This document shows positions 12,469 through 30,231 of a stretch of 32,423 nt of DNA, piece by piece (position 1 is the first letter of the stretch; each line of letters begins with the position of its first letter). The stretch covers positions 1 to 32,423 of the IMG/VR virus record IMGVR_UViG_3300009177_000083. The stretch is one strand, 5' to 3'. The DNA is from a virus. The notes beneath the pieces were generated by a model. The model did no database searches, had not been told where the DNA came from, and was given only the letters and a program-made list of their open reading frames with translations. A program made the translations under genes and the position numbers.

Positions 12469-12484
12469 GTGGTGTCAACACCAC
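12469..12484. promoter_or_regulatory. Operator-like perfect palindrome GTGGTGT-CA-ACACCAC
   Basis: A perfect 7+2+7 inverted repeat occupying much of the 56-bp gap between the tail tube stop (12488) and the chaperone ATG (12431). It belongs to the dispersed GTTGTGT-NN-ACACAAC family. The third position of each arm is exchanged symmetrically (T to G, with A to C opposite). It contains TTGACA on the minus strand, but no -10 element follows at a normal distance, so it is not a promoter. Confidence 0.6.
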
Positions 12485-12487
12485 GTA

Positions 12488-13441
12488 TTAATCCATCAAA
12501 ATCGACAATTCCGCATCGTCGGTTTGATGCTGCACGTTGTATGTGAGATCAAACGTGCGCAGCTGCTCGTTCTCTCCGTAGGGGTTGTCAATCGGTTGCG
12601 CCGTGGGAAAACTAAACTTGACCCGATTCCCGCTCGCCGTCCCGACTTGAAACGCCACGGCATGCACCGCGTTATCTTTGTAAATATCGTTGAAGTAGTT
12701 GCGCAGCGCGGTGTCGACTTCCACGACCATGTTGAGCGGCGGCGCCCGAGACGCAATGAAGAGGCCCTTCATGGCATTGGCCGCATTCGCATCGCGTCGT
12801 TCCGCAATCTGGACCCCAAAGGTAAAGCGGAAACTTTTGAGGACGACGGTTTCTGTGGCAATCGTACACGCCGCACTCTTGAACGAGGGCGCTTTATCGA
12901 GTTCAAACGTTTGGGAGGGAATCGCTACGACGGTGGGATCAATGTACAACCCCCGCATCTCAAACGTGACCTTGCAGTATTCACCCGCCGCGGCTTCCAT
13001 CGTGAACGTGCCCTGCGCATCGGGCATCTGATGCCGAAAGCCGTCCAGGTAAATATCCAACCCCACCGATTCAAAGGCAGACGAACGCGGCGTATAGGTA
13101 ATCGTATTCGCGGTTCCATCGACCGCCTCCAGCATGCCGCACGCACGCATGAGCCGCCCGAACCGCCACGGGATCGGCGCGGTCACATTGGTAATATCTT
13201 CTGGTCCCTGTAAATAGGTCACCCCGGTAAAAATATTGATGACCCGCCCCATAGAATCTTTCCGCTTCGTGAGTGACGGGCGGATCGGCTGAATCTGTTG
13301 CCGCTGCCCATCAATCTTGAGCGGGTTGGTGTTCTCATACATCAGCAGCGCATCGGTCGCTTGACTCAGGGTCGGCATGGCCCCCGGCGTCGTCGTGATG
13401 GCCGCTGCTACGCCAATTTTCTTTCCACTACTTGAGGCCAT
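12488..13441 (-). CDS. Major tail (tube) protein
   Basis: 317 residues, beta-rich, directly upstream of the tail chaperone pair, which is the usual place of the siphophage tail tube gene. The sequence has the look of phage tail tube proteins: an N-terminal segment of short strands (GVAAAITTTPGAM), a domain start with TNVTAPIPWRFGRLMRACGM, and long central strands (ESVGLDIYLDGFRHQMPDAQGTFTMEAAAGEYCKVTFEMRGLY). It ends with strands typical of tube subunits (VKFSFPTAQP; RTFDLTYNVQ). Tube subunits form stacked hexameric rings around the tape measure. It follows a 182-bp gap with an operator-like palindrome and hairpins, consistent with separate control of this abundant protein. The identification rests on position plus general sequence character. 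Confidence 0.8.
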   Translation of the reverse strand: MASSSGKKIGVAAAITTTPGAMPTLSQATDALLMYENTNPLKIDGQRQQIQPIRPSLTKRKDSMGRVINIFTGVTYLQGPEDITNVTAPIPWRFGRLMRACGMLEAVDGTANTITYTPRSSAFESVGLDIYLDGFRHQMPDAQGTFTMEAAAGEYCKVTFEMRGLYIDPTVVAIPSQTFELDKAPSFKSAACTIATETVVLKSFRFTFGVQIAERRDANAANAMKGLFIASRAPPLNMVVEVDTALRNYFNDIYKDNAVHAVAFQVGTASGNRVKFSFPTAQPIDNPYGENEQLRTFDLTYNVQHQTDDAELSILMD

Positions 13442-13508
13442 AGCTGTCTCCTCTGTCGTTCGGGCGGCGGCGCACGGTGCCGGTTAAGGGGGAAGGGGAA
13501 TCCCGGCA

Positions 13509-13540
13509 TGAGAAGAACAGTATCGATTCCATTCTTCTCA
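13509..13540 (-). repeat. Inverted repeat (9-bp arms) upstream of tail tube gene
   Basis: TGAGAAGAA and its complement flank a 14-nt spacer containing ATCGAT. It lies in the 182-bp non-coding gap 13442-13623, about 70 nt upstream of the tail tube ATG. A second smaller repeat (GTCAC...GTGAC) follows immediately. No T-tract follows on the minus strand, so it is not a classical terminator. It may be a leader hairpin or binding site. A 34-codon frame (MESILFFSC...) crosses it but has no ribosome binding site. Confidence 0.45.
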
Positions 13541-13583
13541 CGTCACACGCCGTGACATTTCGGTGACGCTGCCGGGGGCCTGA

Positions 13584-13605
13584 CCTGTTGTGTGAACACA
13601 ACAGG
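13584..13605. promoter_or_regulatory. Operator-like perfect palindrome, 10-nt arms CCTGTTGTGT around GA
   Basis: The longest member of the dispersed inverted-repeat family: arms CCTGTTGTGT and the exact complement with a 2-bp centre, giving 22 bp of perfect dyad symmetry. It sits in the non-coding gap after the tail terminator gene stop (13624) and 143 nt upstream of the tail tube ATG. As RNA it would form a 9-bp stem with a UUCA loop. No T-tract of a terminator follows on the minus strand, and the A-rich sequence on its other side precedes it in transcription order. Confidence 0.6.
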
Positions 13606-13623
13606 AAATAATAAAACAAAAAG

Positions 13624-14112
13624 TTAGACGGGCCGGGCCGGGTCTCCTTCGCGGTGTCGGTATTCCACAACAAAGGTGATCGATCCTTCGAGCCGATTAT
13701 CCAAAATTTCTGACACCGTTTTGTAACTTCGCAGCGGGTTGATACGCACCTGTACCCCGCCGATTTGCTGCTCATCACGCGTCATCATCGCTTTGTGGAG
13801 GTCATGGAGAATTTCATTCCCCAATGTCGCCACCGTATCTGCATCAACATCGGTCATCTGAAACACGACGCTGGTCTCTAATCGACAGCCGGTAAAACCA
13901 GCCGGAGTGGTTGCCCCACTCGCCCCCGCCACCTCATACGTTTCCTCCCCTTCCACCATCTGTAGGGTGTACGCGGCTTCCATCGTTTCCGTCGAAATTG
14001 ACTTACGCCCCACCAATGATGGGGTGTGAAAATATTCCGTCCCAGCAGTCATCGTGGTCAATGTCGTTACGAGGTCCACAAGTATCAATTCCCTAATGGG
14101 GGTCGCGGGCAT
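13624..14112 (-). CDS. Tail terminator / tail completion protein candidate
   Basis: 162 residues. The ATG shares one base with the stop of the gp10-like gene (TAATG), so translation is coupled. Size and position between the gp10-like protein and the tail tube fit a gpU-like tail terminator, which caps the tube at the head-proximal end. The N-terminus (IRELILVDLVTTLTTMTAGTEYFHTPSLVGR) has the helix followed by an aromatic/Pro turn seen in such proteins. A long helix (ATLGNEILHDLHKAMM) and C-terminal strands (EGSITFVVEYRHREGDPARPV) match the alpha/beta layout of that family. The call is by position and shape, with no invariant catalytic residues to check. The stop is followed by an A/T-rich stretch and the operator-like repeat at 13584. 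Confidence 0.65.
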   Translation of the reverse strand: MPATPIRELILVDLVTTLTTMTAGTEYFHTPSLVGRKSISTETMEAAYTLQMVEGEETYEVAGASGATTPAGFTGCRLETSVVFQMTDVDADTVATLGNEILHDLHKAMMTRDEQQIGGVQVRINPLRSYKTVSEILDNRLEGSITFVVEYRHREGDPARPV

Positions 14113-14711
14113 TAGTTCAACACCAGTTCGTTGCGTATCAGTTGCGCAATATCCGCTTCTACTGCGCGTATCGTTTGATCTTTCGGGCCGGTAAAAAAGT
14201 CGCGCTTCGGTATCCGCACTTCCCGCTTCAACACAAAGAGCGGTTCAATGCCGCCCGGACGTTTTCGCACCAAGAGGAGGTTGCCGCGCTTTGATCTGAT
14301 GAAGAACGAATTCGGCACCGACCGCGCAGTTCCACGCGCGACACCTGCCGAGGTCAACATCGCGGGTAACGGAATCGTGAGCCACTGTCCGTGCGTCGGT
14401 CGGAGTACACCGCCGCTCATGTGGATCATGCTATATTTTAGTGCAGGCCCTTGTTTGATAATCCCGACTCTGCCCGTGACCTTCTCCGCCCCTTGCTGCA
14501 GCTCCCAGCCGACCGCCCGAGCGAGATTTCCGGTCCGTCGATGAAGTACCGCTCCCGTCAAATTGTACGTCGTCGCATTGGCCCCTTCGATCAACCGCCT
14601 TTTGAATTGGGGACTGTAGGCCGCGACCAGTCCAGACTGTGCCTTGACCTGCATCGTCGTGGCAAATGCCTGCAACTGTTTGACATCAATGGTGATCGTA
14701 AAATCCGCCAT
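14112..14711 (-). CDS. HK97 gp10-like head-tail joining protein
   Basis: 199 residues from the ATG at 14711 (MADFTITIDVKQLQAF). The frame is open further upstream, but that part overlaps the exported-protein gene and looks non-coding, so the later start is preferred. The N-terminal helix pattern (LKVF-like 'VKQLQAFATTM', then 'FKRRLIEGANATTYNLTGAVLHRRTGNLARAVGW') matches the gp10-like family: many are basic, carry a 'TGNL.R.' turn and end with a helix for oligomerisation (IRAVEADIAQLIRNELVLN). The protein joins neck and tail (family knowledge). Its last codons (GGTGTTGAAC) resemble an operator half-site and overlap the next start. Confidence 0.65.
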   Translation of the reverse strand: MADFTITIDVKQLQAFATTMQVKAQSGLVAAYSPQFKRRLIEGANATTYNLTGAVLHRRTGNLARAVGWELQQGAEKVTGRVGIIKQGPALKYSMIHMSGGVLRPTHGQWLTIPLPAMLTSAGVARGTARSVPNSFFIRSKRGNLLLVRKRPGGIEPLFVLKREVRIPKRDFFTGPKDQTIRAVEADIAQLIRNELVLN

Positions 14712-14721
14712 AACATCACTT

Positions 14722-15105
14722 TTAGTTAGGATCTCTCCAGTTAATGACGACTGGGGTAGAACCACTCTCCAGCAGCGAACACACCTGCCCTTCCCAGCCA
14801 TAAATGCGCACCGGCCATTCGTAGGCCTGTCCTGGCGGAATACACGGCGCAAACAGCGCGGGATTGGTGATCGTAGAACAGGCCGTGCCGTTATCGACGA
14901 ACCCAAAGCAGACGGACCCTGCGGCATTCGCGGGGACGGACACTTTGAGATTTTGTCGAATTTTATTGGTCACCTGGACCCCTGACGTGCTACTGGAAAC
15001 CGTGACTTGCCCGCCCCGAGATCCTGAATTTTCGAGATCGAGCGCCCAGGCCGGACAGCCCCCAAACAGCACGGACAACACAAGCAGTATGACAATATGT
15101 TTCAT
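14722..15105 (-). CDS. Exported cysteine-containing protein of unknown function in the neck gene cluster
   Basis: 127 residues with a clear Sec-type signal peptide: MKH, a hydrophobic core (IVILLVLSVLFGG), and an AWA cleavage-like site at about residues 19-21. A cysteine at residue 17 preceded by FGG gives a weak lipobox, so lipoprotein processing is possible but not well supported. The mature part is small, beta-rich and carries four cysteines (VCFGF, TACST, APCIPP, QVCSLL) that could pair. It lies between the connector and gp10-like genes in the same direction, 9 and 10 nt from its neighbours. Nothing in virion assembly needs a signal peptide here. A surface or superinfection-exclusion role is a guess, and I do not recognise the family. 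Confidence 0.7.
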   Translation of the reverse strand: MKHIVILLVLSVLFGGCPAWALDLENSGSRGGQVTVSSSTSGVQVTNKIRQNLKVSVPANAAGSVCFGFVDNGTACSTITNPALFAPCIPPGQAYEWPVRIYGWEGQVCSLLESGSTPVVINWRDPN

Positions 15106-15114
15106 AGGGGTCCC

Positions 15115-15729
15115 TCAGAAGACATGCCGCACAAAGGGGGCGAGCAATTCCAATACTTGCGGTAAATAGACGGATGGACTGAACATCGACACACTGCCCG
15201 AGGCGGCACTTTCCGCATTCACGCCTAATCTGTTGCGCCCCTGATACACAAAGGCGCTCTGAATCGCGCACGCGAGGTTCAGCGAACTCGGAATCATGGT
15301 GTCGTCTTGAATCAAGCCGCCGGTATAGGTCACCTTGATATGGCCATACCCCCCTGGCCAGCCTGCCCCAGACCGCAACATCACCATCGGAAGTCCGGTC
15401 GGATCAATCACAAGATCGGTCGCCGCTACTTTACTGGGAGTGTCCCACGTGTAGCCAGAATCGATCCACACCTCGGCGGTAGTGATCGGATACGCATGTA
15501 AAAAAAGCCGCTGGCTATTCCCGTCACTGGAAAGATATTCTGTATACTCTTGCAAAGGAAACACCCGATTGGTGACCGCTTCAAATCCTGTGAGTATTTG
15601 CGGATCACCTGTCCCTGATAGTGCCCCGATGATCGCAGCCAAAATGCCATCGTCACTTTCCGAATTCACCATTCCCTTCAGAAACGAGGCTCGAACAAAA
15701 GCCGGGGTTGTTAACGCAATCGCAGTCAC
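15115..15729 (-). CDS. Head-tail connector protein (HK97 gp6-like)
   Basis: 204 residues. The layout matches gp6-like DNA-packaging/connector proteins: helical N-terminus (ASFLKGMVNSESDDGILAAIIGALS), a Phe/Val-rich strand region (FEAVTNRVFPLQEYTEYLSSDGNSQRLFLHAYPI), and the common 'GWPGGYGHIKVTYTGGL' strand. A C-terminal helix with 'PSSLNLACAIQSAFVYQGRNRLGV' follows, where family members have the 'P..l..A....a...y..r...g' pattern. Such proteins form a ring under the portal and start the neck. It is placed downstream of the capsid gene, as expected. The ATG is 9 nt after the previous stop. Confidence 0.8.
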   Translation of the reverse strand: MTAIALTTPAFVRASFLKGMVNSESDDGILAAIIGALSGTGDPQILTGFEAVTNRVFPLQEYTEYLSSDGNSQRLFLHAYPITTAEVWIDSGYTWDTPSKVAATDLVIDPTGLPMVMLRSGAGWPGGYGHIKVTYTGGLIQDDTMIPSSLNLACAIQSAFVYQGRNRLGVNAESAASGSVSMFSPSVYLPQVLELLAPFVRHVF

Positions 15730-15738
15730 ACTCTGTTC

Positions 15739-16335
15739 CTAACACAACGCATCTTCGACCGGAGCGACACTCACTCTCGGCCCATTCATAAAGGGGGCTG
15801 GCGGAATCGGCGGCGGAAACGACGGCAGCCGTCCACGAATCGGTGCAAACTCATTGTGTGGGACTTCGCGCCAGACATCGTCTTTCCCTGCGGGATGCAC
15901 GGGCGTCTCGGGTGGCGTCACAGGCGCCAGTTGCGCTGACTCCTGTACTTGTGGAGGAAGATGCTGCCATTCTTCTCGCACATCTCGAAAGGTCGCGCCC
16001 TGTTGTCGCTGCGTTTCCGCATAGGACGTTTGTAATCCGGCCAGTCCATCCGGGGTCGGCCGCTGTACGAACTCTTCTAACGCACGAATCCGTTGCTGCA
16101 ACACCTCAAACAGTTCCTGCTGATCTCGGACGACATCCGCCAGCCGGTCCACGTCCTCACTCAGCTTGCTATTGCTGACCATCAGCCCGTCCCGTTCAAA
16201 CGTCAATCCGTGATTCGTCACCCGGAGTTTCTTCACCTCTTCCAGCAGGTGAGCCACGGTGGAGACAAACTCCCGGCCCTTCTCCGCCGTCACCTTGAGA
16301 TCCGCATTGATGTCGGTCACTGGCTGTTCCATCAT
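15739..16335 (-). CDS. Coiled-coil and proline-rich protein of unknown function
   Basis: 198 residues. Residues about 8-95 form a long charged helical region with heptad character (GREFVSTVAHLLEEVKKLRVTN; LSEDVDRLADVVRDQQELFEVLQQRIRALEEF). Residues about 95-150 are Gln-rich, and the C-terminus is strongly proline-rich (RLPSFPPPIPPAPF). It follows the 16338 gene with 2 nt between them, so the two are co-translated. Its place between the major capsid and connector genes suggests a head-associated or assembly helper protein, but I recognise no family. Two start ATGs are adjacent (16335 and 16332). Confidence 0.55.
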   Translation of the reverse strand: MMEQPVTDINADLKVTAEKGREFVSTVAHLLEEVKKLRVTNHGLTFERDGLMVSNSKLSEDVDRLADVVRDQQELFEVLQQRIRALEEFVQRPTPDGLAGLQTSYAETQRQQGATFRDVREEWQHLPPQVQESAQLAPVTPPETPVHPAGKDDVWREVPHNEFAPIRGRLPSFPPPIPPAPFMNGPRVSVAPVEDALC

Positions 16336-16337
16336 GG

Positions 16338-16637
16338 TTATTCTTTCCGCACAGGGGGGTGCTCGTGACGCAGCTTCTCAAAATCGTGCGCGGTCCCGAT
16401 CTTCTTGAGAAACTCTTTCCCAAACGCGGCGGCTTCGGCGTCATCCAAGAGACACACCTCGCCCTCGACAAACCGCCCGACACTGGTCATGATCACCCGC
16501 CCGCGTCCCATCACCTCATAGGTACTCTGCGGCAAGTCCGGCTCTGGGACGACCGGGGGCGGCGGTTGTCCAGCAATCGGCTTCGGTGGCTCCACATGCG
16601 ATTGTGGTCCGGGGAATGGTTTGTTCGCGTCAGCCAT
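16338..16637 (-). CDS. Small proline-rich protein of unknown function
   Basis: 99 residues with a proline-rich N-terminal 40 residues (PFPGPQSHVEPPKPIAGQPP) and a compact C-terminal part (GRVIMTSVGRFVEGEVCLLDDAEAAAFGKEFLKKIG) that looks like a small folded domain. 'GRFVEGEVCLLDDAEAAAF' resembles short phage capsid-adjacent proteins that carry a turn-helix after a beta pair, but I cannot name a family. GGAG of the ribosome site is 9 nt upstream of the ATG. A perfect GTTGTGT half-site of the dispersed repeat family (16651-16657) sits 14 nt upstream. Two large palindromes separate it from the capsid gene. Confidence 0.55.
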   Translation of the reverse strand: MADANKPFPGPQSHVEPPKPIAGQPPPPVVPEPDLPQSTYEVMGRGRVIMTSVGRFVEGEVCLLDDAEAAAFGKEFLKKIGTAHDFEKLRHEHPPVRKE

Positions 16638-16660
16638 ATCCTCACTCCTTGTTGTGTTCT

Positions 16661-16686
16661 GGGAGAGGTCCTGCAGGACCTCTCCC
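16661..16686 (-). repeat. Perfect 26-nt palindrome with TGCA loop, second of two behind capsid gene
   Basis: Arms GGGAGAGGTCC flank TGCA. As RNA this is an 11-bp GC-rich stem with a UGCA tetraloop. It lies 8 nt from the larger palindrome at 16695 and ahead of the 16637 gene start. No T-tract follows, so it is not a standard rho-independent terminator. An mRNA stabiliser, processing site or expression step-down after the capsid gene is plausible. Confidence 0.6.
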
Positions 16687-16694
16687 TACTTACC

Positions 16695-16722
16695 CATGCG
16701 GGCTTCTGCAGAAGCCCGCATG
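16695..16722 (-). repeat. Perfect 28-nt palindrome with TGCA loop, directly after capsid gene stop
   Basis: Arms CATGCGGGCTTC flank TGCA, giving a 12-bp RNA stem with the same UGCA loop as the neighbouring 26-nt palindrome. It begins 7 nt after the capsid TAA in transcription order. It has no downstream T-tract. Two tandem, unrelated-sequence but identical-loop hairpins behind the most highly expressed gene suggest selection on structure. Confidence 0.6.
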
Positions 16723-16729
16723 AGAAGGG

Positions 16730-17983
16730 TTATGATGCGGCGGTCTTCAGTCGGGCAAACGCGCCGGGGATGGCTCCCACAAACGCGACCCGCTCGACCA
16801 CGCGCATCCATTTGGTAAATTCCGTAAATCCGGCTTCAGAGGAAATGTCGATTTGCATGCCCATGCGATCACCGAGCGCCCATTTTTTCCAGTCGCCGTA
16901 CAACATAAAGGGAGTCGAGACGGCGGTGGACGCCACACCGGGCATCGCATTGGTCGTGTAGTACGGTCGCCCTAAGATCGTGCCCGGAGGACCGTCGACC
17001 AGCCCACCACTCAAGGACTCTCGCCAAATCGGTTGGCCGGTCGAGTCTTTAATCTTCTGCAGGATGCCGACAATATCCAGGTGAAACACGAACGCCCCCT
17101 GCATAACCACTTTCGGATCGGCGCCATGTTTCAGGTTCACGACGTTGTCATAGACAACATCGGTAAATGCGGTTTTCGTGGACGACATGGTGACATCGGT
17201 CACGCCTGCCGCCTGTAACGCGCCGGTAAACGGCGCGGCCGCGGAGTTAAACGCTTGCTTGTCTTCCTCTAAGGCTACCGCCTCCGTGAACAAATCAGTG
17301 AGCAGCGGGACCAAAGGAACAATGGAGTCCATATCCACCTCAACACTCAGCTCGTCGAGGGCCATCATGGTTTTGGAGTTGAGTTCCGGACGGAGTAAGG
17401 TCACCGTCGAGGTGGTCGGCTTCGTGCCTTCTCCCGGCCAGTACACGAGCGGGCCAGTATTTCGCACAGGCAGTTTCATATCTTTCCTGTGCATCGGATA
17501 GATACGCAGCAGCTTGCGGGCTACGCCCATCTGCCCGATCATCGCCAGCACTTCGGGGTAGATTTCTTCTGGGACGAGAAAGCCGCCCGTGGTGGTCGTG
17601 GTCTCTGTTTGATTGAGACGGGTTACCCCATCGGCGGAATAGGCGAGCTGGGTCCGGGCAAAATGTTTAGGTTGGACTCCGTAGCGGATACGGGCCACGT
17701 CACTCAGGAAATTCTCGAATCCTTGTCGCCCCACTGTCCCCGCCCCAACGGCAGGCACATAAACCTTACTGCCAAACGGTTGGCGTTTGTCGATCTCGTC
17801 ACACCGGACCAGGGCATCTTTCCAGCCTTGTTGGACACTGGTGAGACCAGCGTCTATCTGCCCGAGGCGGGCGTTATGGGCTTCAATCTTTTGCTCAATC
17901 TGCGGAATCGCCGCGGCGATCGGCTCAAGAATTTGCAGGATTTCGTACAGGGGATCACTATGCTTAACTATGACATCAGTCAT
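16730..17983 (-). CDS. Major capsid protein (HK97 fold)
   Basis: 417 residues. The N-terminal ~90 residues form a helical, coiled-coil delta-like scaffold (ILQILEPIAAAIPQIEQKIEAHNARLGQIDAG) normally removed by the prohead protease. The body has the HK97-family signature: 'GGFLVPEEIYPEVLAMIGQMGVARKLLRIYPM', 'VYWPGEGTKP', 'LDELSVEVDMDSIVPLVPLLTDLFTEAVALEEDKQAF' and 'GRPYYTTNAMPG'. The C-terminal strand 'GDWKKWALGDRMGMQIDISSEAGFTEFTKWMRVVERVAFVGAIPGAFARL' is the usual phage_capsid end. It assembles into hexamers and pentamers of the head. It follows the protease gene by 58 nt, with a short AAGG just before the ATG. Confidence 0.93.
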   Translation of the reverse strand: MTDVIVKHSDPLYEILQILEPIAAAIPQIEQKIEAHNARLGQIDAGLTSVQQGWKDALVRCDEIDKRQPFGSKVYVPAVGAGTVGRQGFENFLSDVARIRYGVQPKHFARTQLAYSADGVTRLNQTETTTTTGGFLVPEEIYPEVLAMIGQMGVARKLLRIYPMHRKDMKLPVRNTGPLVYWPGEGTKPTTSTVTLLRPELNSKTMMALDELSVEVDMDSIVPLVPLLTDLFTEAVALEEDKQAFNSAAAPFTGALQAAGVTDVTMSSTKTAFTDVVYDNVVNLKHGADPKVVMQGAFVFHLDIVGILQKIKDSTGQPIWRESLSGGLVDGPPGTILGRPYYTTNAMPGVASTAVSTPFMLYGDWKKWALGDRMGMQIDISSEAGFTEFTKWMRVVERVAFVGAIPGAFARLKTAAS

Positions 17984-18041
17984 CAGCCTTTCTGTTGTTT
18001 CTTGTCACGGAAACACGAACGAGGGTCATTCAGTGATCTTT

Positions 18042-19382
18042 CTAGCGTTGTTTGATCCGCTGCAACTGAGCCGCGATAGACGCATGGGCTTCGGCAGACC
18101 GACCAAAATAGAGTTGTTGTTGGGTGGTCTCCTCGGGCACGTCTGCCGGAGGAGGAGGAACGGTCACAATGTGTTTTAATTTACTCAGTCGTTGGGTCAA
18201 CGCATCGGCGGCCTTCTGCGCGGTTAAGGCAGAGAGCCGTTCTTGGATAGACAGAACCGGGGCCAGTGGCGGCTCAGGCGTGGTCTCAGGCGTCACGACA
18301 GGAGTGACCCCCCGTGCCGTGCGTTGCGTTATCAGACTGGCCGGAATCGCCCGTTTCGCCTGGTTATTGGCAATCGTGAGGAGGAGCGGACGCATCATGT
18401 CGCCACACTCCCGCAAAAAGCTATCCACTTGTGAAGAATTGTCTTGCGCCCCAGGAGGCAGCATATACACCATGCGCAACATCGTCCCGTGACAGCGCTC
18501 CACCTGGTCTACTGCGTCCCACAGATTGGCTTCGTCATCCGCCGCCATTGCCTCAGCAAGCGGGCCGCGCACACTGGGAGGCGCGGCGCTCACCTCAGAC
18601 GCTGGGGAAGGAGCGGAAGACAGCGTCGGAGTTGTGTCTGGGGGTTCAGCCCCCACGGGAAGAGACCGAGAGGAAGCGGCGGGCAAAGACGGGGAGGTCG
18701 AGGGGGAAGCACCCTCGGCCGTGGGGCTGCTCGCACTGTCCTCACTCGCCGCATCGTTAAGTCGCACCACTATAGGGGAGACCCCTGGTGTGACTCGACG
18801 GACTAACCGCTCAACTTCTTCAGCGGTCACTTGTCGTTGCTGGATCGCGCGCATAATAGCGTCGGGGTCAGCAGGGACGGGACAGAGCGAAAATTCTAAG
18901 AGTTCTTGTTCGACATAGGTCAGGCCGACTTGGCGACCTTGCTCATCCAGGTTCGGCTCCCATTTGAGCGGCATCCACTGCACACTGCCCGCCCGCATAA
19001 TCGGCGGGTCCGCGGCATACAAGCGGTAGACCGTGTCGGCAAAGGCGTAATCATCGGGTTTGGCGTAGGTCACCTCTGCCACCAACTGTTTGCCTTCCAC
19101 CCGCATGGTGGGCGCAATGCCAATCGCTGGCTGCGTCACGTCGTGACACCACAACACCGGGGCACCCGTCCGCTTGTAGTTGTCTAAGGCCCATCCAGCA
19201 GTCAGAATGCGGTGTCCATCCCGCTTGGTGCCTTCCGTGGAACAGACAAAACTGATAGTGCGGTCTGGCCCGTCTGGGCGGGCTTGCCGTGTCAGGGCAA
19301 ACTCAGAGCGCAATTGCGTCTGTGGGTCAGTTGCTAAGACCGCAGCAATTTGTGCAGGCGTCACCAGTGACGGCTTAGTCAT
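18042..19382 (-). CDS. Prohead protease fused to a scaffold-like C-terminus
   Basis: 446 residues. Residues about 35-190 are an HK97-type (U35/S78) prohead protease: His80 in LWCHDVTQPAIG, Ser133 in AGSVQWMPLKW, and an acidic residue Glu163 in ELLEFSLCPVPADPDA, in the family order. A Ser/Pro/Ala-rich linker follows (about 210-280: SSPTAEGASPSTSPSLPAA). Then comes a helical charged C-terminal region (DDEANLWDAVDQVERCHGTML; LSIQERLSALTAQKAADALTQRLSKLKHI) that looks like internal scaffold. The enzyme would cut the scaffold and the capsid delta region. Fusion of protease and scaffold in one chain is known in some phages. An operator-like repeat lies 41 nt upstream of the ATG. Confidence 0.9.
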   Translation of the reverse strand: MTKPSLVTPAQIAAVLATDPQTQLRSEFALTRQARPDGPDRTISFVCSTEGTKRDGHRILTAGWALDNYKRTGAPVLWCHDVTQPAIGIAPTMRVEGKQLVAEVTYAKPDDYAFADTVYRLYAADPPIMRAGSVQWMPLKWEPNLDEQGRQVGLTYVEQELLEFSLCPVPADPDAIMRAIQQRQVTAEEVERLVRRVTPGVSPIVVRLNDAASEDSASSPTAEGASPSTSPSLPAASSRSLPVGAEPPDTTPTLSSAPSPASEVSAAPPSVRGPLAEAMAADDEANLWDAVDQVERCHGTMLRMVYMLPPGAQDNSSQVDSFLRECGDMMRPLLLTIANNQAKRAIPASLITQRTARGVTPVVTPETTPEPPLAPVLSIQERLSALTAQKAADALTQRLSKLKHIVTVPPPPADVPEETTQQQLYFGRSAEAHASIAAQLQRIKQR

Positions 19383-19422: not shown

Positions 19423-19438
19423 GTAGTGTTCACACAAC
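19423..19438. promoter_or_regulatory. Operator-like inverted repeat (one mismatch) upstream of protease gene
   Basis: On the plus strand it reads GTAGTGT-TC-ACACAAC, with the right arm perfect and one mismatch in the left arm. It lies in the 109-bp gap between the 40-residue membrane peptide (stop at 19492) and the protease ATG (19382), 41 nt upstream of the latter. Same family as 12469, 13584, 25889, 29945 and 30216. Confidence 0.55.
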
Positions 19439-19614: not shown

Positions 19615-19629
19615 GGTGCATCTCCTCCC

Positions 19630-21876: not shown

Positions 21877-21902
21877 CACGACCACAGGCGCCTGTGGTCG
21901 TG
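21877..21902. repeat. Perfect 26-nt palindrome upstream of portal gene
   Basis: Arms CACGACCACAGGC and the exact complement with no central spacer. As RNA it gives an 11-bp stem with a GCGC loop. It lies about 100 nt upstream of the portal GTG. It lacks a T-tract on either side. It is unlike the GTTGTGT family, so it is a separate element: a binding site or a leader hairpin of the structural transcript. Confidence 0.55.
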
Positions 21903-22092: not shown

Positions 22093-22121
22093 AGCGTATC
22101 AATATGGTATTGTCGTGTCAA
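22093..22121 (-). promoter_or_regulatory. Sigma70-like promoter candidate for the structural operon
   Basis: TTGACA at 22116-22121 and TACGCT at 22093-22098, separated by 17 nt, on the minus strand. The -35 matches the consensus fully and the -10 keeps positions 1, 2 and 6. The -35 lies inside an operator-like repeat (22112-22127; GTCGTGT-CA-ACAAAAA on the plus strand). Binding there would block RNA polymerase. The terminator just upstream (22131-22155) means the portal and later genes need a new start here. Confidence 0.5.
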
Positions 22122-22130: not shown

Positions 22131-22155
22131 AAGAAAAGGGGCGGTGCCTCGCCCC
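22131..22155 (-). terminator. Rho-independent terminator behind the large terminase gene
   Basis: On the minus strand GGGGCG-AGGCAC-CGCCCC forms a 6-bp all-GC stem with a 6-nt loop, followed by TTTTCTTT and then more T. It is 78 nt after the terminase stop. It separates the methyltransferase-terminase unit from the portal-onwards unit. Confidence 0.7.
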
Positions 22156-22232
22156 CTCTCTGCGACCATGATCAGTGGCCCATTTCATTGCGGTGCAGAC
22201 ACAACACCACGCAATCTGAAAACTATAGTGTA

Positions 22233-24384: not shown

Positions 24385-24419
24385 AATCGTTCAAGAGATA
24401 CGCAGGCGTACAAGAGATA

Positions 24420-25901
24420 TTATCTCGGCTTTTTGAAAATAAGGACCGGCTCTGTTGCGACTTCTTCTTCTTGACCAGCCCCAAATCGTCGGGATAAAGA
24501 AAACTCCTCTGTCGTCACGAATTGAAAGCCTGCAGTTAGCGCCGCCCCCTTTGTCCACTCAACAAGGGGATACGTTTTCCCCCGCAAGGTCACATCGGCA
24601 ATGTTCACAACAGCATACGAATCCGCATTGAGTGCCACATGCTGCAAGTGCATCATCGGAATAAGAAACCCCTCCCGCCACGCTTCACCAGTTTGATACC
24701 GTATCCACGATTGCGTTGCCTCATCACTATAATGTTCTTTTGCAAAATAGGGAGGTGACGTAAACGCAAATTGGCATCGATTTTTAAATGCCGCTGGGTC
24801 AACATCTTCTGCCGGGACGTTATGAAGTTCAACGCGTGCGGCCATACCAAGCGCCTCTACCATTGTCATATTTCCTGCATGCGTTGCGGTATTGGGGTCA
24901 ATCCCAATATACAAAGGAAGTCCCGATGCTAAAAATCCTACCAGCCGCCCCCCATACCCTGTTGAGGTATCAAGCACAGTCGCTCCGGGCGGCGCATATT
25001 TTCGATAGAGATAGAGGGCAAAACCAGGACGAAAATTGGAGAGCGGCTGCGTGCCGTGAACAAACTTCAAATTGTTCACGGCACGATCGCCAATAGCCCC
25101 ATATTGCAATTCTAAGGTCAGCGCTTTTCGTAATAGCAGGTCATCACAAAATGCACTATATTGACTCTTCATTTTTTCCGCTGCCGCATGATACCGCTGC
25201 GGATGGTACGTATCCGCCACATGATACGCCATATCTGTTCTGATAAGATGTTCTTTTTCAGTAGAGGATAACTTGTTCATCTCTTGCATACACACATGCA
25301 GCGGGAGTTTTCTATACGGGAATCCCGTCGCCCGAAAATAGGCAAACGCGGCCTCAATAATTTGCTCATTCGTAAAAAGAGGAACCGGAGTCTCTTCTGA
25401 CGCCTCCTCCGCTATCGGCTCACTCCCTGTCTCTGCTATCGCCTGCAACTCCTCCTGTGTAAACGCCGCGGCAATCGGGGCATACCCTTTCGGCAAGTCC
25501 GCCAATTCAATCTGCAATAATGGATTATCCCACTCCGCGAACTCATGGGTTTTATTATCCACGAGCCGCAGCGCTTGAATCTGCTGTGGCGTCAAATCAT
25601 CCGCAAACAGACAGGGCGCGGTGGTCGTCCCTTCCGTATCGCCCGCTTCATCGGCTAACTCACACGCGGCTTGGTAGCGTGTATCCCCGATCACAATCAC
25701 TTTCTGTTTGTCTAGCACAATCGGTTGTCGCCAGCCAAATTCCTTCAGGCTCGCCTTGACGGCAGGAATCGCCCCGGCATTCTTACGCGGATTGCGCGCA
25801 TAGCGGGTAATGTCCCGCAGCGGAACATACACGAGTTGTCGCGCGGACAGTGCGTCTTTGGTAGGAGCCGTTGCCTTGACAGGAGAAGGGAGTGTTGACA
25901 C
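24420..25901 (-). CDS. ParB-like domain fused to a DNA methyltransferase
   Basis: 493 residues. Residues about 24-150 are a ParB/Srx-like N-terminal domain (VPLRDITRYARNPRKNAGAI; ASLKEFGWRQPIVLDKQKVIVIGDTRYQAAC), where GDTR takes the place of the usual GERR/GHTR. Residues about 295-490 are an AdoMet-dependent DNA methyltransferase: motif I DTSTGYGG (311-318) and catalytic motif TSPPY (381-385), the N4-cytosine/N6-adenine type, followed by FAKEHYSDEATQS. ParB-methyltransferase fusions are frequent in phages and may methylate phage DNA. The linker (about 170-290) is not recognised. The start is GTG at 25901, sitting inside the operator-like repeat and about 7 nt after a TATAGC -10 element, so the message may be leaderless. 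The C-terminal half looks more A/T-rich than its neighbours. Confidence 0.85.
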   Translation of the reverse strand: MSTLPSPVKATAPTKDALSARQLVYVPLRDITRYARNPRKNAGAIPAVKASLKEFGWRQPIVLDKQKVIVIGDTRYQAACELADEAGDTEGTTTAPCLFADDLTPQQIQALRLVDNKTHEFAEWDNPLLQIELADLPKGYAPIAAAFTQEELQAIAETGSEPIAEEASEETPVPLFTNEQIIEAAFAYFRATGFPYRKLPLHVCMQEMNKLSSTEKEHLIRTDMAYHVADTYHPQRYHAAAEKMKSQYSAFCDDLLLRKALTLELQYGAIGDRAVNNLKFVHGTQPLSNFRPGFALYLYRKYAPPGATVLDTSTGYGGRLVGFLASGLPLYIGIDPNTATHAGNMTMVEALGMAARVELHNVPAEDVDPAAFKNRCQFAFTSPPYFAKEHYSDEATQSWIRYQTGEAWREGFLIPMMHLQHVALNADSYAVVNIADVTLRGKTYPLVEWTKGAALTAGFQFVTTEEFSLSRRFGAGQEEEVATEPVLIFKKPR

Positions 25902-25904
25902 AAC
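25889..25904. promoter_or_regulatory. Operator-like repeat overlapping methyltransferase start codon
   Basis: GGAGTGT-TG-ACACAAC on the plus strand: the right arm is a perfect ACACAAC, the left arm matches 5 of 7. It covers the GTG start (25899-25901) and the predicted transcription start of the divergent -10 element. A protein bound here could block both transcription and initiation. Confidence 0.5.
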
Positions 25905-25907
25905 CCA

Positions 25908-25935
25908 GCTATAGCAAACTGTGTGCTTGACGCAA
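25908..25935 (-). promoter_or_regulatory. Promoter candidate for the methyltransferase-terminase operon
   Basis: TTGCGT (25930-25935) and TATAGC (25908-25913) with a 16-nt spacer on the minus strand. The distance from the -10 to the GTG start is 6 nt, so transcription would begin at or next to the start codon. Its -35 overlaps the -35 of the rightward promoter candidate (25927-25955), so the two probably compete. Confidence 0.5.
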
Positions 25936-25955
25936 GGTGGAAAGCGGACTAACCT
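25927..25955 (+). promoter_or_regulatory. Promoter candidate for the 25985 gene
   Basis: TTGACG (25927-25932), 17-nt spacer, TAACCT (25950-25955), followed by AAGGAG and the ATG at 25985. The -10 keeps positions 1, 2 and 6. It is divergent from, and overlaps, the methyltransferase promoter candidate. Confidence 0.5.
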
Positions 25956-25984
25956 AACGGAGTAGATTGAAGGAGAAACACCCG

Positions 25985-26449
25985 ATGCCGTATCACGATG
26001 ACCCTCGGCTGATTGAGTTAGCCACCCTCATCCCAGAGATTGTCGCGCAGCTAGACCTCATCCCAGAGTGCCGCGCGGGGATCTGCTATCAACTCATGCT
26101 GCAGAGTACTGTAGCGCCGCTGCTCCTCGCGCTGGGGATGCACACCGAAGAAGCAGAACGACAACTGATCACGTATGCCGACCTGGACCACATCACGCCC
26201 GCCGAACGCACTGCGGCTTTAGATCTCGTGGAAGCGTTGCCCCATGTGATTACCGATGTCCGGACACTGCTCAGCGCGGAACACTGGGGGCTCGTGTTTC
26301 CCCTCCTCACGGCGATTGCACAGGGGGTCATCCATCATGAGGACCTTGCCCGAGAACTCTTGAGACACAATCATTTCGCGCATGACGAACGGTATGCCGC
26401 GTTTCGGCGCTTTATGAAACTTGAAGACACCCCGAACGAGGCCGCCTAG
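25985..26449 (+). CDS. Helical protein of unknown function, divergent from methyltransferase
   Basis: 154 residues from the ATG at 25985, which has AAGGAG 9 nt upstream. An upstream TTG (25967) is in frame but has no ribosome site. The protein is almost entirely helical and acidic/His-rich (LIELATLIPEIVAQLDLIP; ERTAALDLVEALPHVITDVRTLL; HHEDLARELLRHNHFAHDERYAAFRRFMKLED). There is no membrane segment and no known motif. It stands alone on the plus strand between the terminase operon and the attachment-site candidate, so it could be a regulator or a lysogeny-expressed accessory gene. I cannot assign it. Confidence 0.65.
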   Translation: MPYHDDPRLIELATLIPEIVAQLDLIPECRAGICYQLMLQSTVAPLLLALGMHTEEAERQLITYADLDHITPAERTAALDLVEALPHVITDVRTLLSAEHWGLVFPLLTAIAQGVIHHEDLARELLRHNHFAHDERYAAFRRFMKLEDTPNEAA

Positions 26450-26792
26450 CGCAGTCAACATCCTGTGTGTGCCCCCACCGTAGCCATTCTCTCCTGTTTG
26501 TTTTGGGGAATTGTCAACAGCGGGAAGGAAAAAGACGGGAAAAAAGAGGGGGTATGATGCGGCGCTCGCTCACGACTGGTGGGGGAGTGAAGCGCGAGAG
26601 TAGGATAGATATGAAGAAGAGCACTACGAAGGAAAGGAAGGTGAATAGTGAGTAAGTAGGACTTTTAAGTCCTGCGCGTTTGCCTATTTCGCCACTCCGG
26701 CAGTTGAATAAAATCAATGAGTTAGCCACAATTTTTCTGTATCGATCAAAAGTTCTGTTGCCAATACGTTGCCACTTTCAGAAAGAATCAGT
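26450..26792. other. 343-bp non-coding region containing the tRNA-derived attachment-site candidate
   Basis: No convincing gene. A 33-codon basic plus frame (from about 26553) follows GAGGGGG but is low-complexity and unsupported. A 71-codon minus frame is just translation across the tRNA half. The region is purine-rich on the plus strand at 26515-26655, holds TTGTCAACAG (26511-26520), weakly like the operator family, and the tRNA half at 26663-26701. Between the tRNA half and the Rep gene there is TTGAAT-17 nt-CACAAT (26704-26732), a weak promoter candidate for rep. Confidence 0.55.
26655..26701 (-). other. attP candidate: 5' half of tRNA-Leu(UAA) up to the anticodon loop
   Basis: The minus strand from 26701 to 26663 reads as a tRNA-Leu 5' half of 39 nt. 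It has the GCCGGAG acceptor strand, TGGCG with a GCG/CGC D-stem, a D-loop with GG, and then AGGACTTAAAA with anticodon TAA. After the anticodon loop the match stops: no 3' anticodon arm of the usual phase, no variable arm, T-arm or 3' acceptor strand follows. At the break, AGGACT and AGTCCT flank TAAA, the arm-spacer-arm layout of a tyrosine recombinase core. The integrase is 1.2 kb away. That this is attP is inferred. Confidence 0.7.
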
Positions 26793-27761
26793 ATGACACA
26801 TCCCCCCTACTCACGTCCACCGACGTTCGCAAAAGATGGGATTGGGCTCTATAAACAAACCGCAAAAAAATTAGAATGGCTGTATCAAACCAGTCCCGTA
26901 CAAAAACATAAAGACTATGCCTATCGTATCAACAGGTGTGGCCCCACACGAAAGCATACGTGGTATTGCAGAGTTAAACTCTGTCCCGTGTGTATGTGGC
27001 GACGCTATAAACGGTGGCAAGCCCGTTTTTATTTTTCCGCCCTCCCAGCGCTCCATGAAGAACATCCCAATGCCCAATTTTTACTACTCACCCTAACAGT
27101 GAAAAATGTAAAAATAAAACATCTCCGGTGGACCGTCCATGCGATGGCGGAGGCGTGGCATCGATTGACCCAACTCCGTGCCTTTTCATGTCTGGGCTGG
27201 ATACGTGCGCTGGAAGTCACCCGCACAGCAGACGGATTGTGTCATCCGCATTATCACTGTTTGTTAATGGTCTCTCCCCTGTACTTTCGCACGAGTTATC
27301 TCACCCAGCACGCATGGGGCGCCCTCTGGCAACAATGTCTCCGTGTCTCCTACACCCCCGTCGTTGACGTGAGAAAAACACGCGCGGAACGATTCTCCTA
27401 TCTCATTAAGCCACTCGATCTTTCTCTCAACACAGATCGTTCTGCACTTCGTCCCTACGTTTTTGCCTTGACTGACCATCTCCATAAAATAAAACTCATT
27501 ACGGCAGGCGGCACACTCAAACGGTACTTGCAATTATCCCAGATCCCCAGAGAGATCACGCCCTCTAAAAATGTTCCCTTACATTCCATTCATCATGATG
27601 GATACAAAAATCAGCTCGCATTAGGAGAGGAAATTTTCCCCAGTGCCGACCTCTCCCCAGAAGAAAAATTTCTCCTCATCGATTCAATTGCGGAACGGTT
27701 ACAGCGCGAACGGGGCCTGTCTCGCACCGAAGCCCTTGCCCTCATCAAAGACGCCATGTAA
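26793..27761 (+). CDS. rep: Rolling-circle replication initiator (Rep_1, pUB110/pC194 type)
   Basis: 322 residues from the ATG at 26793. It carries the family motifs: Cys pair CPVC with Trp/Arg after it (64-69, CPVCMWRR), motif I FLLLTLTVKNV (96-106), the His-hydrophobic-His metal site HPHYHC (151-156), and FSYLIKP (201-207) whose Tyr203 is the likely nicking tyrosine. The enzyme nicks one origin strand and joins to it covalently. This family serves small plasmids and is unusual in a tailed phage. The gene is visibly more A/T-rich than the structural genes. A strong terminator follows at 27804, so it is its own unit. No family origin could be identified by eye. Confidence 0.85.
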   Translation: MTHPPYSRPPTFAKDGIGLYKQTAKKLEWLYQTSPVQKHKDYAYRINRCGPTRKHTWYCRVKLCPVCMWRRYKRWQARFYFSALPALHEEHPNAQFLLLTLTVKNVKIKHLRWTVHAMAEAWHRLTQLRAFSCLGWIRALEVTRTADGLCHPHYHCLLMVSPLYFRTSYLTQHAWGALWQQCLRVSYTPVVDVRKTRAERFSYLIKPLDLSLNTDRSALRPYVFALTDHLHKIKLITAGGTLKRYLQLSQIPREITPSKNVPLHSIHHDGYKNQLALGEEIFPSADLSPEEKFLLIDSIAERLQRERGLSRTEALALIKDAM

Positions 27762-27803
27762 GATCCAGTTATGCAAATCATAAACATTCTTTATGTATTC
27801 GCA

Positions 27804-27842
27804 CCGAGGGAAGGGGTAAACACCCTTTCCTCTCGGTTTTTT
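27804..27842 (+). terminator. Strong rho-independent terminator behind rep
   Basis: CCGAGGGAAGGGGT pairs with ACCCTTTCC-CTCGG (one bulged T, one G-U) to give a 14-bp stem with an AAAC loop, followed by six T (27837-27842). On the opposite strand no T-tract follows, so it ends only the rightward rep message before the convergent integrase gene. Confidence 0.85.
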
Positions 27843-27856
27843 CTGAGCACTTCTGC

Positions 27857-28972
27857 TTAAAGTTTTTGTTTTTTGAGTGTCTTCTCCCCCTTCCGCTCAA
27901 TCACCTCCCGCAACGTATCAAAACTCGGCTGATTATAATGCCGCGTCACGACGTGCAAACTCTTGTGACCCGTAATCGCCATAACCACTTTGTAGTTCAC
28001 CCCCGCGTTCAGCTGCCGCGTGATAAAGGTTCTGCGCAGATCGTGGACATGGACGGTGTGCAGGCCGAGGGAGTGACGTGCTTTCCGGACATACCACAGG
28101 AATTGATGCCGGGTGAGGGGAAAGACCAGCGACTCCTCTCCGCCTTTCGGTTGGGAACACACCGCGGCGTGTACGGCGTGGGACATGGGCACCCGGCGAG
28201 CATCGCTCCCTTTCGTCCCGATAAAGCGGAGCCAGTGTTCCTCACAATTCACATGACTCCACCGCAACGCTAACACCTCCCCCTCCCGTGCGCCTAATTC
28301 CCATAAAACCGTGAGCACCGCTGCAGCAATGGCAGGAAGGGCCTCGCACAAACGCTGATACTCTGACTCTGAGACGAGTCGTGTCCGCGTGCCGGTCTCG
28401 CGGTCTAACTGGAGATGCGGCCGTTCCGCAATCACATGATCCCGTTCGGCTAAGATCAGCAACGAGCGTAAGAAGGCCAGTTCACGGTTTATCGTGGCCG
28501 CTGTGGGTGGGGTGCCATACCGTGTGATCGCGGTCCGTCGATGCTGCTGGTACTCAGCAATGCCCGCCGAGGACACCTGACTGAGCGGAATATCCCCAAA
28601 AAAATCACACAGCCGAGACAAGGAGAGCCGATCTTTCTCCACACTGCGCTTATGTTGCTTGGTCGCAAGCCAACGCTGCCCCCATTCCGAGAGTGTCACA
28701 ATCTGTGGTGGTGGGGTACGGGCCGCCTGCTTGGCCGCGTCAAAGTCCGTCTCAATCGCATTCTTGCCTAAGTAGAAATCTCGGCGCTTGAGCGCCAGGG
28801 CCAGCGTATCGCCGCCTGGAAAGACGCGCCGTTTGCCTTGCCAGTCCGTGAAGCGCACGTAATACAGCGTCCGCACCCGTCCATCCTGCGTGCGATAGGA
28901 ACGGGCCACCAAATGTCTAGGCAGTGATGCGGGGGGCTTTGCCACGGGGCACCGTCCGGCCAACCAGATCAT
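27857..28972 (-). CDS. int: Tyrosine recombinase / phage integrase
   Basis: 371 residues from the ATG at 28972 (a TTG at 28975 is next to it). Numbering from the TTG, the catalytic set is complete: Arg230 (ELGAREGEVL), a Lys in GTKGSDARRVPM, His311 and Arg314 (HDLRRTF), His337 (TGHKS) and nucleophile Tyr347 (RHYNQ). The N-terminus has a strand pair (YYVRFTDWQGKRRVF) like arm-type DNA-binding domains, then a SAM-like core-binding helix region (SVEKDRLSLSRLCDFFGDIPLSQV). It catalyses attP-attB recombination. The gene overlaps the repressor-like gene by about 55 nt. A GTG at 28945 would shorten the overlap, and neither start has a good ribosome site. The tRNA-Leu half at 26663 is the probable substrate. 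Confidence 0.93.
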   Translation of the reverse strand: MIWLAGRCPVAKPPASLPRHLVARSYRTQDGRVRTLYYVRFTDWQGKRRVFPGGDTLALALKRRDFYLGKNAIETDFDAAKQAARTPPPQIVTLSEWGQRWLATKQHKRSVEKDRLSLSRLCDFFGDIPLSQVSSAGIAEYQQHRRTAITRYGTPPTAATINRELAFLRSLLILAERDHVIAERPHLQLDRETGTRTRLVSESEYQRLCEALPAIAAAVLTVLWELGAREGEVLALRWSHVNCEEHWLRFIGTKGSDARRVPMSHAVHAAVCSQPKGGEESLVFPLTRHQFLWYVRKARHSLGLHTVHVHDLRRTFITRQLNAGVNYKVVMAITGHKSLHVVTRHYNQPSFDTLREVIERKGEKTLKKQKL

Positions 28973-29435
28973 CAAGCGAGCAGTGATAAAAGTTGGCGAG
29001 CTTAATCAGCGTGTAAATATCCGGCCAGGGTGCCCGCCCGGTTTCATAGCGCCAGAGTTGCGTGCGGTCCACGCCCGCCCGCTCCGCCACCACGGGCCGA
29101 GAGAGGCCCCGTTCCTCCCGCATGGCAAGCAACGCCCGCCGGAGCGTCTCGGCATACGGCGGCGGATTGGCGAGCGCATGCGGCGGGCGTTTGCGATGCG
29201 GCGGCGGTTTCTTGCCCGGCAGTTTCCGCTGGCCATTCGTGGCCCCCTGCAAGCGCGTGATGCGGGGATCAATCAGGATCTCTGGGGCCGGTGCCCCCGT
29301 CATCGTCGCCGCTCCCTGCACACACACCTCGTCATCGGCAGCGGCCAGTGAGCCGCACACCAGCCGGGCCACCAAACAGACCACCGTGCCGCTGGTGCCC
29401 ACGCGCCGCCAGAAACACACATTGTGAGATTCCAT
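28917..29435 (-). CDS. XRE-family repressor-like protein
   Basis: 172 residues from the ATG at 29435, chosen because AAGGA lies 8 nt upstream. A GTG at 29522 and an ATG at 29303 (with GGGAG) are alternatives. Residues about 94-160 are an XRE helix-turn-helix (AETLRRALLAMREERGLSRPVVAERAGVDRTQLWRYETGRAPWPDIYTLIKLANFYHCSLDDLVG). The first ~45 residues are odd: Cys-rich and hydrophobic (CLVARLVCGSLAA), followed by a Lys/Arg/Pro-rich hinge (GKKPPPHRKRPPH). It is divergent from the early operon and upstream of the integrase, the usual site of a lysogeny repressor. It is a candidate binder of the dispersed GTTGTGT repeats. Confidence 0.8.
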   Translation of the reverse strand: MESHNVCFWRRVGTSGTVVCLVARLVCGSLAAADDEVCVQGAATMTGAPAPEILIDPRITRLQGATNGQRKLPGKKPPPHRKRPPHALANPPPYAETLRRALLAMREERGLSRPVVAERAGVDRTQLWRYETGRAPWPDIYTLIKLANFYHCSLDDLVGRTVPRGKAPRITA

Positions 29436-29572
29436 CGTATACGTCCTTGTGCGCGCCGGTGCGCGGCTGTCCTCCTCCGGTCTGGTGGCTGCGGCCCACG
29501 CTTCCCAGGCATCGCTCCTCACCTCATATCATAGTGCGTGTTCTGCGGGCGGAGCTGTGCGCCGCGACGGAC

Positions 29573-29601
29573 TTGACTTTTTTCCCACAATGCCATATAT
29601 C
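29573..29601 (+). promoter_or_regulatory. Promoter candidate for the rightward early operon
   Basis: TTGACT (29573-29578), 17-nt spacer, TATATC (29596-29601). GGGGAGG and the ATG of the first early gene (29628) follow. The -35 matches 5 of 6 and the -10 keeps TATA. It lies in the divergent gap (29436-29627) facing the repressor-like gene. No copy of the GTTGTGT repeat overlaps it. Confidence 0.6.
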
Positions 29602-29627
29602 CGGGCCAGCAGGGGAGGTCATTCGCT

Positions 29628-29954
29628 ATGCACACGGCAAAATCCGTCACTCAATCGCGTCAAAATCCCCAAAACCGCAGAATTGTTAAAAAGTCTAGCA
29701 ACATCCCACCCGCAATGCAAATCCCCCCACCGCAGGAGTTTCCCCTCTCCCGGAAGAGGCAGGCCCCAGAGTTTATCTCGGTCCCCCGCTGCGCGGAGCG
29801 GCTTGGGGTCAGTGACGAGACCGTCAAAACCTTGATTCACCAAGGGAAGCTGACGGCCATTAAGCTCAATGTCCATCTCCGCGTCTCGGTTGCTTCGATT
29901 GAGGCATTGAAACAACGCGCCCTCGTCTCTCCTACGCCGCCGTCGTTGTGTTGA
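29628..29954 (+). CDS. HTH_17/excisionase-like DNA-binding protein, first early gene
   Basis: 108 residues, ATG preceded by GGGGAGG at 9 nt. The first ~45 residues are polar, Pro/Gln/Arg-rich and probably disordered. Residues about 49-95 form a MerR/excisionase-like winged helix (FISVPRCAERLGVSDETVKTLIHQGKLTAIKLNVHLRVSVASIEALK), with the turn before the recognition helix and the 'R.S..SIEAL' end typical of HTH_17. As the first gene of the early operon it may be an excisionase or regulator. Its stop codon lies inside the perfect operator-like palindrome at 29945, and the next gene has the same fold. Confidence 0.75.
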   Translation: MHTAKSVTQSRQNPQNRRIVKKSSNIPPAMQIPPPQEFPLSRKRQAPEFISVPRCAERLGVSDETVKTLIHQGKLTAIKLNVHLRVSVASIEALKQRALVSPTPPSLC

Positions 29955-29960
29955 CACAAC
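29945..29960. promoter_or_regulatory. Operator-like perfect palindrome GTTGTGT-TG-ACACAAC
   Basis: Perfect 7+2+7 dyad spanning the stop of the first early gene and ending 24 nt before the next ATG (29984). It equals the family consensus exactly. The embedded TTGACA has no -10 at a usable distance. As RNA it forms a 6-bp stem with a UUGA loop. Confidence 0.65.
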
Positions 29961-29983
29961 ATGTGTAGAATAGGGGGAAGGCT

Positions 29984-30208
29984 ATGATCTGGTATACGGC
30001 GACTGAGGTCGCCCGTCGGTATGGCGTCTGTCTGCGTACCATTACCCGTGCCGTCGCCCGCGGTGACATCACACCTACCGCCCGCGTCCATCAGCACTAC
30101 CGCTTTACCGAAGAAGCCCTCGTGGCCTGGGAACAACGGACACAACTCGCCAAACCTCCCGGTCGCCCCCGCACCATTTACCCCCTTGACACAAGCAACC
30201 TACTTTGA
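29984..30208 (+). CDS. Small HTH_17/excisionase-like DNA-binding protein
   Basis: 74 residues, GGGGAAGG just before the ATG. Residues about 4-52 are an HTH_17 winged helix (YTATEVARRYGVCLRTITRAVARGDITPTARVHQHYRFTEEALVAWEQR), the excisionase/MerR-like fold. The C-terminus (PPGRPRTIYPL) holds a GRPR element that resembles an AT-hook. It is flanked by two family palindromes (29945 and 30216), and a half-site (TTGACACAAG) lies in its last codons. That makes it or the preceding protein a good candidate for autoregulation. Excisionase, repressor or anti-repressor cannot be told apart from the sequence. Confidence 0.75.
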   Translation: MIWYTATEVARRYGVCLRTITRAVARGDITPTARVHQHYRFTEEALVAWEQRTQLAKPPGRPRTIYPLDTSNLL

Positions 30209-30215
30209 TAGGTTG

Positions 30216-30231
30216 GTGGTGTTGACACTAC
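30216..30231. promoter_or_regulatory. Operator-like repeat GTGGTGT-TG-ACACTAC (one mismatch)
   Basis: Dyad with one mismatch, lying in the 48-bp gap after the small HTH gene stop and 26 nt before the next ATG (30257). It shares the GTGGTGT arm with the copy in front of the tail chaperone gene. Confidence 0.6.

Follow-up and report, generated by a model that had tools for sequence, protein, structure and literature searches.

The phage fragment analyzed here carries a dispersed family of 16-bp palindromic repeats that is real and statistically strong. Judged from the sequence, its six sites are probably operators of one phage-encoded, dimeric DNA-binding repressor, which would silence the lytic arms. 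The window, meaning the whole stretch of DNA that was analyzed, is a single linear virus record of 32,423 bases; the genes at its two ends are cut off, and six sites is the count for this fragment. The phage is tailed, with its late genes (tail, tape measure, tail tube, capsid, protease, portal and terminase) on the minus strand, and it also encodes an integrase, an XRE regulator and two HTH_17 regulators. To our knowledge, immunity through dispersed operators has been characterized in no more than a handful of phages, which infect actinobacteria and Bacillus; the family described here has its own sequence and belongs to an uncultured phage, and one relative carries a different family. If the proposed reading is true, one virus-encoded regulator could switch off many gene groups at once.

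The pattern GTNGTGTNNACACNAC (GTDGTGT-NN-ACACHAC) was found at six places in the whole window with at most one mismatch, against 0.03 expected by chance, and five of these match exactly, against 0 expected; the expected counts come from simulated sequence with the dinucleotide make-up of the window. The original prediction had listed exact dyads at 12469-12484, 13584-13605 (16-bp site at 13587-13602) and 29945-29960, which the sequence and the pattern scan bear out, and near-perfect or degenerate ones at, among others, 19423, 30216 and 25889, which all lie within one mismatch of the pattern. The six sites and two weaker elements are the following.

12469..12484: full site GTGGTGTCAACACCAC, 37 nt ahead of the start of the tail assembly chaperone gene (11898-12431), with the tail tube gene (12488-13441) on its other side
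13584..13605: full site (13587) inside the 22-nt extended dyad CCTGTTGTGTGAACACAACAGG; the tail tube gene starts 145 nt downstream
19423..19438: full site GTAGTGTTCACACAAC, separating the portal gene from the head maturation protease gene, whose start follows after 40 nt
25889..25904: one-mismatch site GGAGTGTTGACACAAC in a divergent gap; it overlaps the GTG start codon of the ParB_N-methyltransferase gene
29945..29960: full site GTTGTGTTGACACAAC; it overlaps the end of HTH_17 gene 1, and HTH_17 gene 2 starts 23 nt further on
30216..30231: full site GTGGTGTTGACACTAC behind HTH_17 gene 2, abutted by an extra half-site ACACCAC at 30232; the 30257 gene starts 25 nt beyond the full site
22190..22210: possible weak auxiliary site (9.3 bits, near background) in the gap before the portal gene, made up of a degenerate dyad GCGGTGCAGACACAAC and overlapping half-sites
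16651..16657, plus strand: isolated half-site GTTGTGT, weak, in the gap that follows the capsid gene

A matrix built from the six sites scores them at 22-27 bits (22.4 for the weakest), figures that are inflated because the same six trained it. The next-best position in the window (5673, within a gene) reaches 13.9 bits, leaving a clear break below the six, and in 200 runs of simulated sequence the maximum score averaged 10.6, with a top of 19.2. Seven copies had initially been listed for such a matrix scan: six stand far above the simulated average maximum, but the seventh, at 22112, scores 10.7 bits, which is background, although it lies in the gap before the portal gene. Half-sites proposed at 5398 and 30187 were dropped, as they fall within the ends of coding sequences and differ from the half-site motif. 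The number of single half-sites is not raised (9 found, against roughly 12 by a simple base-count estimate), and gaps hold four of the nine, a mild enrichment (P = 0.002, two overlapping ones counted separately).

All six sites touch non-coding DNA, which a random 16-mer does with a probability of 0.074 (P = 1.7e-7), in keeping with the proposed enrichment between genes. The window has 14 gaps of at least 25 nt, and six of them contain a strong site. The family was also recovered unaided by a de novo dyad search restricted to gaps (corrected P = 2.8e-11), as the only six-member dyad family of its kind in the window. This composition-corrected search, which covered about 80 contigs, replaced a count-based version whose output was swamped by GC-rich words; its match in G452 was set aside as AT-rich low complexity, and several marginal families were also discarded. 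Perfect palindromes of 26 nt (21877-21902, in the gap upstream of portal) and 28 nt (16695-16722, downstream of capsid) are possible terminators or processing sites, and a strong terminator-like hairpin with a T-rich tail on the minus strand lies between the terminase and portal genes (22132-22161).

The motif appears to be private to this phage. Terminase relatives, mostly of about 40-57% identity, were gathered from viral contigs and genomes, the latter including those of Chloroflexota, Streptomyces and other bacteria. No site at one mismatch or fewer was present in the searched stretches of about 120 terminase-related contigs, so conservation in relatives, on which the original prediction had set store, lends the sites no backing. 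This suggests that the motif goes with a regulator of the phage itself rather than with the terminase lineage or a common host factor. One exact match elsewhere in genome G026 is not remarkable among 13 bacterial genomes of millions of bases. Scanning viral contigs with the exact 16-mer gave 15 matches, and with a 14-base version at least 118, which look like chance; L010 and L118, with several weak copies each, were opened and are unrelated. Searches of viral contigs returned no useful close relatives of the portal, helicase, XRE or HTH_17-2 proteins, a portal search of 400 genomes from the phylum of an Anaerolineales match gave distant matches only, and a megablast of positions 1-24500 against phages gave no match.

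That one regulator would bind dyads of both early and late operons, as had been predicted, is well supported by the number, position and symmetry of the sites. We hypothesize that each 7-bp arm (GTDGTGT) contacts one repressor subunit, the two arms being separated by a free spacer of 2 bp. Within a prophage, this repressor would occupy the gene-boundary sites heading several late and early transcription units, namely chaperone-tape measure, tail tube, protease-capsid, the divergent methyltransferase/25985 pair, HTH_17 gene 2 and 30257-helicase. Bound there, it would either block initiation at local promoters or halt read-through polymerase, and its presence at dispersed sites would silence the lytic arms.

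The position of the sites relative to genes bears on this mechanism. A usual location 10-40 nt before a start codon had been described; four sites do lie at 23-40 nt, but 13587 is 145 nt away and 25889 overlaps a start. At 12469, 29945 and 30216 a Shine-Dalgarno sequence follows about 10-16 nt after the end of the site, which leaves no room for a -10 element and a start point downstream of it. RNA polymerase must therefore start upstream of or on these three sites, and this placement, on or downstream of the transcription start, favors repression or a roadblock over activation.

It is possible, if on balance unlikely, that the sites are palindromic stoperators, at which the bound protein mainly stops elongating polymerase inside operons and does not act at promoters. 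Such a role would fit sites that lie between co-directional genes, beside ribosome sites and without recognizable promoters; indeed, no consistent sigma-70 promoter hexamers were found near the sites, a lack that also counts against the repressor reading favored above. However, the promoter rules of the host may differ, region P27 of phage BPs lacks confidently predicted hexamers yet has promoter activity (PMC4557955), and L5 stoperators are asymmetric whereas the sites here are not. Rather doubtful is the proposal that a small repressor dimer uses the palindromic sites as elongation roadblocks at structural-operon gene boundaries, with the early promoter under a different site; if true, dispersed sites, and not one master switch, would keep the prophage silent. 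If confirmed, the family would provide a clean test of promoter repression versus roadblock, and a readily detected sequence marker for the immunity specificity of uncultured phages.

We consider it improbable that the sites bind a phage activator of late genes (for example, of HTH_17/MerR type) or serve a phage-specific promoter system. Sites do precede structural operons, two HTH_17 genes adjoin sites, and MerR-type proteins are often activators. Against this, the sites at 12469, 29945 and 30216 lack the room before the Shine-Dalgarno sequence noted above, and the model of the 74-aa HTH_17 protein 2 contains no helix long enough for a MerR dimer coiled coil.

The symmetry of the sites points to DNA and not RNA as the recognized form. 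Dyads are perfect in three of the six sites and near-perfect in the other three; the central 2 bp are free, and the T and A flanking the center are invariant. The third arm position is G, T or A in 3, 6 and 3 of the 12 half-sites. The symmetric arm changes originally predicted hold in three sites but break down in 19423 and 25889, where A stands opposite A, and in 30216, where G stands opposite T. Compensatory stem changes were sought in all six sites and not found, with A-A, G-A and G-T at the variable positions of three of them. Thus, the two halves vary independently of each other at the third arm position. A protein dimer that reads each half-site separately would be expected to leave this pattern and an RNA stem under selection would not, although six sites offer few changes. 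No U-run follows the site on the coding strand at any of the six, and intrinsic terminators were rejected for lack of a U-run behind the stem. With arms free of RNA-stem co-variation and no U-run following, the most likely reading of the sites is a DNA dyad that a homodimer would bind.

An RNA hairpin with a U-rich tetraloop had been offered as an alternative; the loops (TCAA, TGAA, TTCA and TTGA) are not U-rich, and the uncompensated mismatches disfavor a hairpin. There is accordingly little to recommend hairpins beside the Shine-Dalgarno sequence that bind a protein and control translation, whether as translational operators or start-associated elements. What speaks for them is the consistent 23-40 nt between four sites and start codons, the stable RNA folds of two sites (-10.9 and -12.5 kcal/mol), the start-associated sequences of cluster K mycobacteriophages, some of which contain inverted repeats (PMC3203893), and a relative, G463, with seven oriented copies of TGCCCGCTAGGGCA, mostly beside start codons. 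Yet the stems at 19423 and 25889 contain A-A mismatches, the 19423 site folds at only -2.3 kcal/mol, the T and A beside the center are invariant though they would not pair in an RNA tetraloop, site 13587 lies far from its gene (145 nt) while 25889 overlaps a start, and the palindromes of this phage are not followed by any shared element. Roles as partition (centromere-like) sites or as sites for a host transcription factor are very improbable: a site overlaps the start of the ParB_N-methyltransferase gene and the phage has a Rep_1 replication gene, but no ParA was present among the proteins searched, the searches run found no ParB DNA-binding domain in the methyltransferase fusion, and a widespread host factor should leave sites in related phages, where none were seen.

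For the repressor that we favor as the ligand of these sites, the candidates encoded in the fragment are the following.

27857..28975, minus strand: tyrosine integrase (PF00589, E=9.1e-19), overlapping the XRE gene (temperate phage module)
28917..29303, minus strand: XRE-type regulator, leading candidate binder; start codon uncertain, longest ORF to 29522
29628..29954, plus strand: HTH_17 protein 1, excisionase-like
29984..30208, plus strand: HTH_17 protein 2, MerR/Xis-type winged helix (HTH_17, E=1.5e-10), second candidate binder

Among the named candidates we favor the XRE protein next to the integrase, at about even odds of being the binder. Its profile matches are HTH_31 (E=2.4e-11) and HTH_3 (E=1.4e-9), and its model folds into an XRE domain of five helices, which reach a pLDDT of about 90; XRE domains typically bind palindromes as dimers. 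Foldseek matched the model to SinR, DdrO, P22 c2 and 434 Cro, with weak E-values (best overall 2.8e-3) and a probability of 1.00. HTH_17 protein 2 is a less likely binder, although its gene is flanked by two sites (29945 and 30216); if it were the binder, its own gene would have a site in front (29945). Among named phages, it comes closest to Xis/MerR-like genes of mycobacteriophages, for example Brujita and Babsiella, and its model resembles MerR DNA-binding domains, BldC and an excisionase, with no dimer coiled coil. The remaining candidates are HTH_17 protein 1, a protein outside the fragment, or the integrase, the latter because the SP-beta repressor MrpR has a recombinase fold (PMC10516654). 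A point against XRE is that the 324 nt between its gene and that of HTH_17-1 (29304-29627) contain no site, although a classical repressor would be expected to keep its principal operator there. Elsewhere in the fragment, a rolling-circle plasmid replication gene (Rep_1, E=3.5e-55) lies at 26769-27761, within a tailed phage that also has an integrase, and a ParB_N-like domain is fused to a DNA methyltransferase at 24420-25901.

The repressor sites of phage phiC31 are conserved inverted repeats. By comparison with known systems, the best explanation is that the sites would be dispersed palindromic repressor operators like those of BPs gp33, phiC31 and SP-beta MrpR, with a sequence of their own and a known type of switch; as in BPs and phiC31, several near-identical palindromes lie in gaps across the genome. 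BPs gp33 binds five loci with a palindromic core in small intergenic regions, one of them between genes 5 and 6, and in the BPs lysogen three promoters besides the early one are down (PMC4557955). The likeness lies in one repressor, dispersed loci, a palindromic core and small gaps; in contrast, the BPs core is CGACATATGTCG, its full operators are paired half-sites, and BPs has operators in the divergent region of its repressor (PMC4557955), whereas the region in front of the XRE candidate has none; such an operator is not known to be a requirement for all members of this kind. The gene order of integrase, repressor and divergent MerR/Xis gene is that of Brujita, and the XRE protein has no detectable homology to the Brujita repressor. 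SP-beta carries the repeated element SPBRE, bound by the master repressor MrpR, in many intergenic regions of one prophage, and SPBRE too was first found by sequence alone; MrpR differs in its tyrosine-recombinase fold and 15-bp motif, and most named SPBRE target genes are of unknown function (PMC10516654).

The Streptomyces phage phiC31 also resembles this phage in having many repressor sites over its genome, and as cited in PMC4557955, phiC31 and L5 have 18-30 dispersed sites against six in this partial genome. The original prediction had taken L5-type stoperators as its parallel. Like L5 stoperators, which silence the prophage from dispersed sites (PMC6550527, PMC9283540), the sites here are many and lie between genes (six of six touch gaps). 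In these sources, however, the stoperators of L5 and cluster A are described as asymmetric, monomer-bound and mostly in one orientation (PMC9283540, PMC4557955, PMC6550527), whereas three of the six sites here are perfect dyads, the rest near-perfect, and their orientation is undefined. Membership in the L5 type therefore fails, although the sites may still act as roadblocks.

Relatives carry other repeat families. A different dispersed 17-bp palindrome, GTATCGTNNNACGATAC, was the one clear second family in the gap-restricted de novo search; it occurs in one terminase relative (L250/L295), with four copies in gaps, a corrected P of about 1e-7 and a chance expectation of 0.01 when two mismatches are allowed, and is independent of and, by its sequence, apparently unrelated to the palindrome of this phage. 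In L295 (contig IMGVR_UViG_3300037264_001112) the copies are as follows.

1937, 7546, 9387 and 13982: copies of GTATCGTNNNACGATAC

Two of them precede late-region genes, at distances of about 28 and 22 nt, and we infer from gene order that one of these genes encodes the protease. In G463 (contig IMGVR_UViG_3300036821_000178; L308-L310), the oriented family consists of seven exact copies on one strand.

56488, 56783, 57190, 57495, 58329, 59486 and 59954: copies of TGCCCGCTAGGGCA

Six of the seven closely precede a GAGAGGAG ribosome site and an ATG, so this may be a start-associated sequence family, a different kind of element. Finally, L035 contains twelve TGCTAGTGAGAGTCCTAGCA-like dyads clustered within 1.2 kb (6949-8173).
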